Shown: in pieces, positions 41,248 to 44,073 of the stretch
How positions within the stretch are numbered: position 1 is the stretch's first letter
How the letters are laid out: each line of letters opens with the position of its first letter
From: a bacterium
Lineage (GTDB): Bacteria > Armatimonadota > Fimbriimonadia > Fimbriimonadales > Fimbriimonadaceae
Assembly (NCBI GenBank): GCA_027485645.1
Contig: JAIXQR010000007.1
Coordinates: 620,001-684,000 of the forward strand
Length of the DNA: 64,000 nucleotides
Direction: 5' to 3'
Made by a program: the position numbers and the translations under genes
The notes under the pieces: model-generated
Told to the model about the DNA's origin: nothing
Database searches by the model: none
Seen by the model: the letters and a program-made list of their open reading frames with translations, nothing else

Positions 41248-41276
41248 TTGAAATATCTGGCGCGTCGGGGTACTAT
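41248..41276 (+). promoter_or_regulatory. rpsD promoter
   Basis: TTGAAA (41248-41253), 17-bp spacer, TACTAT (41271-41276); predicted start near 41283, giving a leader of about 37 nt. Confidence 0.65.
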
Positions 41277-41319: not shown

Positions 41320-41928
41320 ATGGCAACGTACCGAGGACGAAAAACTGATATATGCCGAACCGTTGGCTTTGATATTTGGGGTCGACCCAAGAGCCCGGCA
41401 AGCAAGCGACCGTATCCGGCAGGGCAACATGGCCCGAACCTGAAGGATCGGCGACAATCCGAATATGGCGAGCAGCTTCTGGCCAAGCAGGTCATCCGCC
41501 GCTATTACAACGTTTTGGAAAAGCAGTTCGCAAACACTTTCCATAAGGCACAGCGAATGAGCGGCAACACCAGCCTCAACTTCCTTCGCCTTCTAGAACT
41601 GCGACTCGCAACCGCTGTTTACAAGCTCGGCTACGCGAAGACCATCTTCCAAGCCCGACAGCTCGTAAGCCACGGCCACATCACGGTCAACGGTCGGAAC
41701 GTCAACATTCCTTCCTACTCGCTGCAGGTCGGCGACGTGATTGCCGTTCGAGACCGAGAACAGAGCCGAAGCATTGCGCGAGCAAACCACTTCGAAGGTG
41801 CTCCAGTTCCGGCTTACATGGAAGCAGACGTCGTCAACTTCTCTGGCAAGATCATCTCGCTGCCAGAGCGAGAAGACTTCCCTAAGTTCTTCCAAGAACA
41901 GCAAGTCGTCGAATACTACGCACGTTAA
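41320..41928 (+). CDS. rpsD: 30S ribosomal protein S4
   Basis: 202 aa, usual length. N-terminal region without the zinc-binding cysteines of the C+ form (RGRKTDICRTVGFDIWGRPKS contains one Cys only), then KDRRQSEYGEQLLAKQ, the RLDNVVYR-equivalent RLATAVYKLGYAKTIFQARQLVSHGHITVNGRNVNIPS, which is the S4 RNA-binding domain (about 90-150), and the C-terminal FPKFFQEQQVVEYYAR. It nucleates 16S rRNA folding in the 30S 5' domain. It is monocistronic here, away from the usual alpha operon (rpsM-rpsK-rpoA), with its own promoter and terminator. Confidence 0.97.
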   Translation: MATYRGRKTDICRTVGFDIWGRPKSPASKRPYPAGQHGPNLKDRRQSEYGEQLLAKQVIRRYYNVLEKQFANTFHKAQRMSGNTSLNFLRLLELRLATAVYKLGYAKTIFQARQLVSHGHITVNGRNVNIPSYSLQVGDVIAVRDREQSRSIARANHFEGAPVPAYMEADVVNFSGKIISLPEREDFPKFFQEQQVVEYYAR

Positions 41929-41952
41929 GTCTTCGAACAAGGTACAAATTCA

Positions 41953-41983
41953 CCTCTCTGCCCCTCCGCAGAGAGGTTTTTTT
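41953..41983 (+). terminator. rpsD terminator that also supplies the next gene's ribosome-binding site
   Basis: CCTCTCTGC and GCAGAGAGG pair over 9 bp with a CCCTCC loop, followed by seven T. The ATG of the GNAT gene begins directly after the last T, so the 3' arm (GAGAGG) lies 7 nt before the start codon, an ideal Shine-Dalgarno position. Confidence 0.85.
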
Positions 41984-42574
41984 ATGCCTGCAGATTGGAA
42001 CGAGCACGTTGTTTTAGAGAGCGAATGGGTACGGCTCATTCCAGCTAAGCGGGACCACGCGGCTGAACTTGCCGAAATTAGCACGGCAGATACCTTCGCA
42101 TACTTCGTGCAAGACCTCCCGCGGACCATGGATGAGAGCGGCTTTGCTACGTTTATTGATCGACTCGCGCAAACGCCAAACGTTCAGCCCTACACGGTGA
42201 TCGACCAAAGCTCCGGCAGCCTCGCCGGCATGACGTGCTTTATGGACATTCGTGCTGCCCATCTAGGGTTGGAAATCGGATGGACCTGGTACGGCCCACA
42301 ATTCCGCGGGACAAAAATTAACCCAGCCGCGAAGCTTCTCCTGTTAACCCGTGCGATGGAGGAGTTACAAGCCATCCGGGTTCAGCTGAAGTGCGACGAA
42401 CGGAACGTTCGGAGCCAACGAGCGATCGAGAAACTCGGAGCCGTTAAGGAGGGTGTTCTCAGGAAGCACGGTATCCAACTCAACGGCTATATCCGCAACA
42501 CCGTGATGTATTCGATCACCGAACTTGAGTGGCCCTCTGTAAAGGCAAATCTCATTCAACGTTGCCAGTTATAA
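41984..42574 (+). CDS. RimJ/RimL-type GNAT acetyltransferase
   Basis: 196 aa from the ATG at 41984; the frame runs upstream through rpsD and the terminator, but nothing conserved lies there. GNAT_3 layout: VVLESEWVRLIPAKRDHAAELAEI at the start, LEIGWTWYGPQFRGTKINPAAKLLLLTRAMEE (the motif A equivalent), and RVQLKCDERNVRSQRAIEKLGAVKEGVLRKHG. Members acetylate ribosomal protein N-termini, spermidine or small amines. It sits directly after rpsD but is cut off by a terminator whose 3' arm forms its own ribosome-binding site. Confidence 0.9.
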   Translation: MPADWNEHVVLESEWVRLIPAKRDHAAELAEISTADTFAYFVQDLPRTMDESGFATFIDRLAQTPNVQPYTVIDQSSGSLAGMTCFMDIRAAHLGLEIGWTWYGPQFRGTKINPAAKLLLLTRAMEELQAIRVQLKCDERNVRSQRAIEKLGAVKEGVLRKHGIQLNGYIRNTVMYSITELEWPSVKANLIQRCQL

Positions 42575-42575
42575 T
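42570..42575 (+). promoter_or_regulatory. -10 element of the M32 carboxypeptidase gene
   Basis: Consensus TATAAT ending 7 nt before the ATG at 42583; predicted start one base before the codon. It overlaps the stop codon of the GNAT gene. Confidence 0.5.
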
Positions 42576-42582
42576 CCGTGCA

Positions 42583-44073
42583 ATGTCCCCGTTACAAAAG
42601 GTGCGAGCTGAATACAGAGACTTGACTGCGTTGCATGCCTCGGTATCACTCCTCAACTGGGACCGCCAAGTTCTTATGCCGAGCGGCGGAAACGAAGCGC
42701 GCTCAATTCACATCGGTCGGCTCACTGCTCTTGCCCACCAACGACTCCTAAATCCCTCCCTTCGCCGAGCCGTCGAAGACGCCCGAGCCGAAGTCGCCGG
42801 AGACCCGGTCGCCGAGCGCGAGCTTGCGCTCATCCAGCGTCAAATCGATCACGCCTCAAAACTGCCGCTAAAGCTGATTACTCGAAAGGCGGAAATTGCG
42901 AGTCAATCCTACGAAGTCTGGCGTCGCGCCCGGCCGTCCAACGATTTCGATGCCCTCCGGCCGTATCTGATGTCCTTGTTTGACATTGCTCAGGAAACTT
43001 CCTCCGCCCTTGGATACACCGAACACCCGTATGATCCATTGCTTGATCTTTACGAAGAGGGAGCAAAAACGAGCGACGTGCTCCGAATGTTTGATCAGGT
43101 CAAACCGCGAGTCTCTAAGCTGATCCGAGACATCAAGGTGAACGGCGCGAGGATTGACGCAACCTGGCTAAACGGCAGTTGGGAGACTGAACCGCTGCGC
43201 CGGGCTGCCCAGAACATCGGCGCGAAGATTGGTTTCGACTACTCGAAAGGTCGACTCGACTTGTGCGCGAACGCGTTCTGCACTACCGTGAGCATGAACG
43301 ACGTGCGCATGACGACGCGCCCAGGAACGCACATTAAGGGGGTTCTGTCCTCGTCCCTCCACGAACTCGGTCACGGACTCTACGAGCAAAACGGCAACCC
43401 GGCCTGGAGCGCCACCAGTCTCGCCGGTGGCGCATCGCTGGCCGTTCATGAAAGCCAGAGCCGCATGTGGGAGAACATCATCGGAAGATCTCGGCCATTC
43501 TGGCGGTACTTCTTCACGTACCTTCAAGCCGAATTCCCGACGTTGGCATCAAAGATTCCCGACCAGTTTTACGCCGCATTTAGCGCCATCCAACCCGGCT
43601 GGCTTCGGGTGGGTGCAGACGAGCTCAGCTACAACATGCACATTCTCGTGCGGTTCGAAATTGAAGTCGAAATCTTGACCAACAAGCTCCAAGTCCGCGA
43701 CATTCCCGAAGCGTGGAACGCGAAAATGAAGGAATACGTTGGCGTAAACATCGAGTCAGATGGCCAGGGCTGCTTGCAGGACGTTCACTGGAGCAAGGGC
43801 TCCATCGGCTACTTCCCAACCTACGCCATGGGGAATCTTATCGGTGGGCAGATTTGGGCAAAGATCCGAGAGCAAATCCCAGCATGGGAAGAGCAGCTAG
43901 AGCGAGGCGACACCTCACATATCCTGGCTTGGCTCACCGAAAACATCTATGTGAAGGCAAGCTCCCAGGCCCCGCGAGACCTGGTGACCGGAGTTTGCGG
44001 TGACTATCTCAACCCGAATCCTTGGCTCGACTACGTTGAGGAAAAGTACACCGGACTCTACGGGCTGAACTAG
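42583..44073 (+). CDS. Carboxypeptidase Taq (M32 family metallopeptidase)
   Basis: 496 aa from the ATG at 42583, just behind a consensus -10. Zinc site HELGH (260-264) in SSLHELGHGLYEQN, with the third-ligand region VHESQSRMWENIIGRSRPFW. The rest (FEIEVEILTNKLQVRDIPEAWNAKMKEYVG, DVHWSKGSIGYFPTYAMGNLIGGQIW) is typical of the family. It removes C-terminal residues from peptides in the cytosol. The C-terminal TAG interlocks with the TAG of convergent glyQ in a shared CTAG. Confidence 0.95.
   Translation: MSPLQKVRAEYRDLTALHASVSLLNWDRQVLMPSGGNEARSIHIGRLTALAHQRLLNPSLRRAVEDARAEVAGDPVAERELALIQRQIDHASKLPLKLITRKAEIASQSYEVWRRARPSNDFDALRPYLMSLFDIAQETSSALGYTEHPYDPLLDLYEEGAKTSDVLRMFDQVKPRVSKLIRDIKVNGARIDATWLNGSWETEPLRRAAQNIGAKIGFDYSKGRLDLCANAFCTTVSMNDVRMTTRPGTHIKGVLSSSLHELGHGLYEQNGNPAWSATSLAGGASLAVHESQSRMWENIIGRSRPFWRYFFTYLQAEFPTLASKIPDQFYAAFSAIQPGWLRVGADELSYNMHILVRFEIEVEILTNKLQVRDIPEAWNAKMKEYVGVNIESDGQGCLQDVHWSKGSIGYFPTYAMGNLIGGQIWAKIREQIPAWEEQLERGDTSHILAWLTENIYVKASSQAPRDLVTGVCGDYLNPNPWLDYVEEKYTGLYGLN

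Follow-up and report, generated by a model that had tools for sequence, protein, structure and literature searches.

A Shine-Dalgarno-like motif within the 3' arm of an rpsD terminator that abuts the start codon of a GNAT acetyltransferase gene

We describe the junction between two genes on the forward strand of a 64,000-nucleotide (nt) stretch of a Fimbriimonadaceae genome (GenBank assembly GCA_027485645.1, contig JAIXQR010000007.1, positions 620,001 to 684,000; this whole stretch is called the window, and its own numbering is used). The upstream gene, rpsD (41320..41928, + strand), encodes the 30S ribosomal protein S4 (202 amino acids [aa]; TIGR01017, above its cut-off), and the downstream gene (41984..42574, + strand), which starts with an ATG at 41984, encodes a GNAT acetyltransferase of 196 aa (PF13302). 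Between them, 23 nt past the rpsD stop codon, is an intrinsic terminator (41952..41983, + strand) that was recognized from the sequence, from a terminator scan, and by folding. Its stem-loop (41952-41977) reads ACCTCTCTGC / CCCTCC / GCAGAGAGGT, with 10 perfect pairs and a 6-nt loop, and is followed by seven T (41977-41983), the first of which is paired within the stem. There are 0 bases between the T run and the GNAT ATG (41984-41986). The hairpin has a predicted folding energy of -17.9 kcal/mol (z-score of -5.9 relative to shuffled sequences, with 0 of 200 shuffles equally stable), so that a stable, G+C-rich hairpin directly precedes a T run, as is typical of intrinsic terminators. Embedded in its 3' arm is GAGAGG (41971..41976, + strand), a Shine-Dalgarno (SD)-like motif that is separated from the GNAT ATG by a 7-nt spacer and forms a duplex of -7.7 kcal/mol with an anti-SD oligonucleotide sequence that we typed in. 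An SD motif in the 3' arm of a terminator, with a start codon at functional spacing, is the layout of the rplJL leader peptide (see below). A preliminary description of this locus, made from the letters alone, had reported both the terminator running straight into the GNAT ATG and the GAGAGG at SD distance, and our coordinates and folding agree with it.

The hairpin belongs to rpsD. Of 20 genomes of the genus that we examined, 19, among them the present one, yielded rpsD (loci L031-L049), and at 18 of these 19 loci a terminator is present 16-41 nt past the stop codon, although its stem sequence differs in nearly every genome. The exception (L037) has a hairpin without a T run. By the same test, two of five other family members examined have a terminator behind rpsD. 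Because it recurs behind rpsD throughout the genus, we consider the hairpin to be the terminator of rpsD rather than an element of GNAT; judged from these comparisons, it is the intrinsic terminator of a single-gene rpsD unit and independent of the acetyltransferase. The junction with GNAT is rare. In a tblastn search of the fetched loci with 1.5-kb flanks, rpsD and GNAT are adjacent at only two of the 19 loci, those of this genome and of a sister species (G014, whose locus matches contig CAMCWC010000011.1), and a scan of the genome contigs for the junction returned two loci and no further member.

The preliminary description named two ways in which its reading could fail, namely a layout that is not conserved and a true GNAT start farther downstream. 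As regards the first, the only other genome found with the junction retains all four elements: the hairpin, its T run, the SD motif, and the distance to the ATG. The sister is identical at 43 of the 55 intergenic bases, and the 12 changes include several that preserve pairing within the stem: the outer A-U pair is G-C (changed on both sides), one U-A pair is U-G, and there is an extra C-G pair at the loop, giving a predicted folding energy of -22.8 kcal/mol. Six T are unpaired in both species, and the spacing of the T run before the ATG is retained. With presence behind rpsD at 18 of 19 genus loci and pair-preserving changes in the sister, the hairpin at the junction is confirmed as real and beyond chance. 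Taken by itself, the SD motif argues less strongly, as similar strings recur in terminator arms (see below). In the sister the SD motif is GGGAGG, which is a better match to the anti-SD (-10.9 kcal/mol with the same oligonucleotide). The sister comparison is compatible with both functions, terminator and SD, and is thin evidence for either.

As regards the start codon, this genome has no in-frame ATG, GTG, or TTG between 62 codons upstream of the GNAT start and codon 41. The next downstream in-frame start (codon 41) lies inside the GNAT domain, for which the Pfam match begins at residue 17; in the sister, the nearest downstream start is a TTG at codon 17. The GNAT homologue at L083 begins MIDVQPVYLEGEWVRLEP, which aligns with MPADWNEHVVLESEWVRLIP here. 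Given that nearby in-frame starts are lacking and that the beginnings of the homologues match, the ATG at 41984 stands, and none of the alternative starts, upstream or downstream, is convincing. The GNAT reading frame does remain open across the gap, for 81 codons upstream into rpsD (and similarly in the sister); it was rejected, as the changes in the gap, compared by eye, preserve the hairpin and not a peptide.

In RNA that reads through from rpsD, the SD motif is predicted to be fully buried (unpaired probability of 0.000 in both species), with an opening cost of 15.9 kcal/mol here and 14.6 kcal/mol in the sister. The preliminary description had argued that read-through mRNA hides the site, which is sound as a prediction for both species. 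It had further proposed that only transcripts starting inside the hairpin are translated, which in effect requires a promoter at the 3' end of rpsD that frees the SD motif while read-through RNA stays silent. Removal of the 5' arm would indeed reduce the cost of opening from about 15 to 2-5 kcal/mol (predicted at ~4-5 here and ~2 in the sister for RNA beginning at -25 or later), and a conserved upstream heptamer, AGGTACA, partly resembles the -10 consensus of the genus, GGTAnAnT. However, in neither species does the heptamer have the final T of that consensus, and its score is no better than chance. To evaluate such sites we trained a -10 model on this genome, with 94 sites after iteration; it recovers the promoter of rpsD (score of 7.5) and a box adjoining the ATG of the gene downstream from GNAT (8.7), each at matching positions in the two species. 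Between -120 and -15 relative to GNAT (105 positions) the model found no -10 site above chance: the best scores were 2.2 and 3.8, which are reached by 0.4% and 0.2% of sampled positions, respectively (~0.4 and 0.2 such sites expected in the region). In neither species was a -10 element found at the spacing (7-12 nt) needed for transcription to begin inside the hairpin, and no better-scoring site is spaced suitably for initiation in the loop. The start point set by AGGTACA, as by the best weak site, would lie within the 5' arm, and opening of the SD motif would then still cost 8.3-8.8 kcal/mol. The claim that GNAT is translated only from RNAs that begin within the hairpin is thus not upheld, as neither species has a credible promoter there, and we regard a promoter of this kind as distinctly improbable. 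A coupling of GNAT expression to the efficiency of rpsD termination is possible.

A hairpin of this type might instead be opened by a factor or by a competing upstream structure, permitting read-through and freeing the SD motif together. The precedent is the Bacillus subtilis rplJL operon and its relatives, in which the SD of a leader peptide forms part of the 3' side of a terminator hairpin and is hidden once the hairpin has formed (PMC4538822). The likeness to the junction described here is close, in that the 3' arm of an intrinsic terminator contains, and buries, the SD of the coding sequence behind it. The differences are that the rplJL element works as an attenuator within a leader, involves an antiterminator and a protein ligand, and precedes a leader peptide, whereas here the end of rpsD precedes a gene for a complete enzyme, and a search of 350 nt upstream gave no antiterminator. 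Specifically, no upstream pairing with the 5' arm within this distance does better than shuffled sequences (the best value is reached by 30 of 40 and by 16 of 40 shuffles), there is no Rfam match up to an E-value of 1, and what precedes the terminator is a protein-coding gene rather than a leader. Attenuation is therefore, in our judgment, very unlikely at this junction. The missing antiterminator makes membership in the attenuator type less probable; it does not bear on the SD-in-arm layout itself.

Two further systems bear comparison. In Neisseria, expression of fHbp in the cbbA-fHbp pair depends partly on read-through of the terminator of the upstream gene (PMC8026042), so that a downstream gene relies in part on its neighbor's terminator; fHbp differs in having its own promoter between terminator and gene, and an SD inside the terminator is not described in the passages of PMC8026042 examined. 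In Sinorhizobium, the metA leader with its SAM-II riboswitch has an intrinsic terminator close to the start codon (PMC9373788), and terminator and translation start are likewise packed into one leader, but control is by the riboswitch and the SD is upstream within it, outside the terminator arm. In the literature searched, we did not meet the SD-in-arm layout at an rpsD terminator. An SD motif in the 3' arm of a terminator is already known, and the rpsD case, whose function is putative, joins that layout with read-through of a neighbor's terminator.

In this genome, GGAG, GAGG, or AGGA is present at -20 to -5 of 111 of 414 called starts, compared with 27 of 414 for a control stretch, based on home-made and approximate gene calls (rpsD was shortened and one downstream start, that of M32, misplaced) from a caller that favors SDs. 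TANNNT was observed exactly at -12 in 34 of the 414 called starts, with a GGTAnAnT-like consensus (positions 1-400000 of contig C1 of this genome [G000], plus the window). Leaderless genes seem to be common in this genome, and SD motifs are in the minority. Given that SD motifs occur at only 111 of the called starts, GNAT may not need one. The 3' arm could then be merely SD-like and its overlap with the junction coincidental, with GNAT starting through the U-rich tract and an open AUG. The low frequency of the motif, despite a caller biased toward it, and the leaderless mark at -12 make an SD-less start a serious rival; moreover, SD-like strings are frequent in terminator arms (in a 464-kb sample, the final 10 nt of the 3' arm included GGAG, GAGG, or AGGA for 9 of the 31 terminators located behind genes), and another junction of the same kind, C3:156443 (described below), has no SD in either this genome or the sister. 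On the other side, the motif at GNAT has been kept, and in fact strengthened to GGGAGG, in the sister despite the 12 intergenic changes, and the GNAT ATG itself is not leaderless, as there is no -10 box at -12 (a leaderless GNAT start was rejected for this reason). Overall, we consider an SD-independent start unlikely, although it is the most probable of the alternatives.

The pattern GAGGN{0,2}TTTTTN{0,2}ATG has one match in the whole genome, at the GNAT junction (none for a reversed-pattern control). Across the 20 genus genomes, with both strands counted, it has 70 matches, compared with 44 for the control. Among those of the 30 pattern loci L081 and L084-L112 that gave a result on the forward strand, two besides L081 (L108 and L109) have long open reading frames (ORFs) but lack a strong hairpin, whereas the strong hairpin at L106 comes with an ORF of only 16 aa. 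Using a more general scan for a terminator followed by a start codon, which covered 864 kb (the window plus two 400-kb samples, ~27% of the genome), we obtained 23 rows for 20 distinct sites, of which three are convincing terminator-ATG junctions: GNAT, C1:102580, and C3:156443. Candidate C1:151609 was dropped because the protein is implausible, and C3:310531 because its frame continues upstream, where it presumably encodes a photolyase-type N-terminus; the remaining sites were set aside from the scan output alone, because the T run contained or adjoined a TTG or GTG, the stem was weak, or no gene preceded the site. The GNAT junction is therefore one of a few terminator-ATG junctions in a compact genome.

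At C1:102580 (L066; L135), between what we take to be a pilin-like gene and a gene for a 98-aa lipoprotein-like protein, the 3' arm of the terminator contains an SD-like GGAGGG 9 nt ahead of the ATG, and the terminator is identical in the sister. The G011 homologue of the gene has a hairpin, with an arm that lacks an SD. At C3:156443 (L122; L138), a hairpin and seven T directly precede the ATG of a presumed P-II-like gene, 102 nt behind a presumed IscA-like gene, and this arrangement is conserved in the sister; the same combination of hairpin, T run, and ATG was not seen at the homologues in G011, G007, and G006. The C3:156443 hairpin could be an attenuator. One might go further and propose that the genus has a small regulatory class of terminators abutting ATGs in which the SD is deliberately hidden, with GNAT and the C1:102580 gene being translated only from RNAs whose hairpin has been opened or removed (e.g., by processing of read-through transcripts); we would give this little credence.

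Comparison of gene order in the genus suggests how the junction may have arisen. At six genus loci (L083, L009, L010, L011, L012, L013), GNAT is directly behind a gene for an M32 peptidase, and its ATG is at, or overlaps, the M32 stop codon; an ATG placed within a stop codon is a layout that would suit translational coupling. Because GNAT often starts inside the M32 stop codon elsewhere in the genus, the rpsD-GNAT junction appears to be derived. The simplest reading of these gene orders is that a rearrangement swapped the upstream M32 gene for rpsD, whereby a coupled GNAT start would have become a start against the rpsD terminator. As a separate observation, rpsD, GNAT, and M32 genes are shuffled in the genus, with M32-GNAT-M32 in G011, M32-rpsD-M32 in G007, and rpsD-GNAT-M32 here (L033, L083, window 41320-44073).

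Taken with the evidence above, the explanation that we consider probable is that a moved GNAT gene met the existing terminator of rpsD, that the 3' arm was kept as part of its translation start, and that the basal level of GNAT is low. The rearrangement would have preceded the split between this genome and the sister: in their shared ancestor, a GNAT gene that had previously begun inside the M32 stop codon would have been set directly behind the rpsD terminator. The G-rich 3' arm would then have been at SD distance and have been retained within the new translation start. Most RNA polymerases would halt at the T run, and the rare read-through transcripts would hold the SD inside a very stable hairpin. 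With termination and a hairpin-bound SD acting together, GNAT would be shielded in two ways from the strong promoter of a ribosomal protein gene. The gene is intact, its pN of 0.148 and pS of 0.802 indicate purifying selection, and its identity to the sister is only 77%, as compared with 98% for rpsD and 96% for M32; divergence so much faster than that of its neighbors fits low expression.

Several points weigh against this explanation. The SD motif may be a coincidence, given the frequency of SD-like arms noted above; the 3' end of the 16S rRNA was not found in this assembly (a 16S 3' end with CCTCC was found in three of the 20 genus genomes); and the conservation argument rests on a single sister species, in which GGGAGG could hint at active selection for an SD rather than an incidental overlap. 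Fast evolution of GNAT has other possible causes.

If rearrangement next to the rpsD terminator is the correct explanation, the junction would be an example of a rearranged gene whose ribosome-binding site was supplied by the terminator behind which it came to lie, and, should the hidden SD work as predicted, 32 bases would insulate a low-expression gene from a strong promoter at two levels. The layout looks like an ordinary outcome of rearrangement and compact packing, and the junction leaves the understanding of termination or translation unchanged.

The remaining features at the locus concern the flanking genes. The probable promoter of rpsD, found by scan and with the -10 model, has an extended -10 element, GGGGTACTAT (41266..41276, + strand), behind a TTGAAA at 41248, and the sister shares both motif and score at the corresponding position. 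On the other side of GNAT, the M32 carboxypeptidase gene (42583..44073, + strand) begins 8 nt past the GNAT stop codon. A TATAAT (42571..42576 on the + strand, placed by eye to within a base) adjoins its ATG, and is just 5' of the M32 ATG in both sister species (window 42571-42583; L002 2085-2101). From its position at the 3' end of GNAT, this box is likely to be the promoter of a leaderless M32 mRNA.
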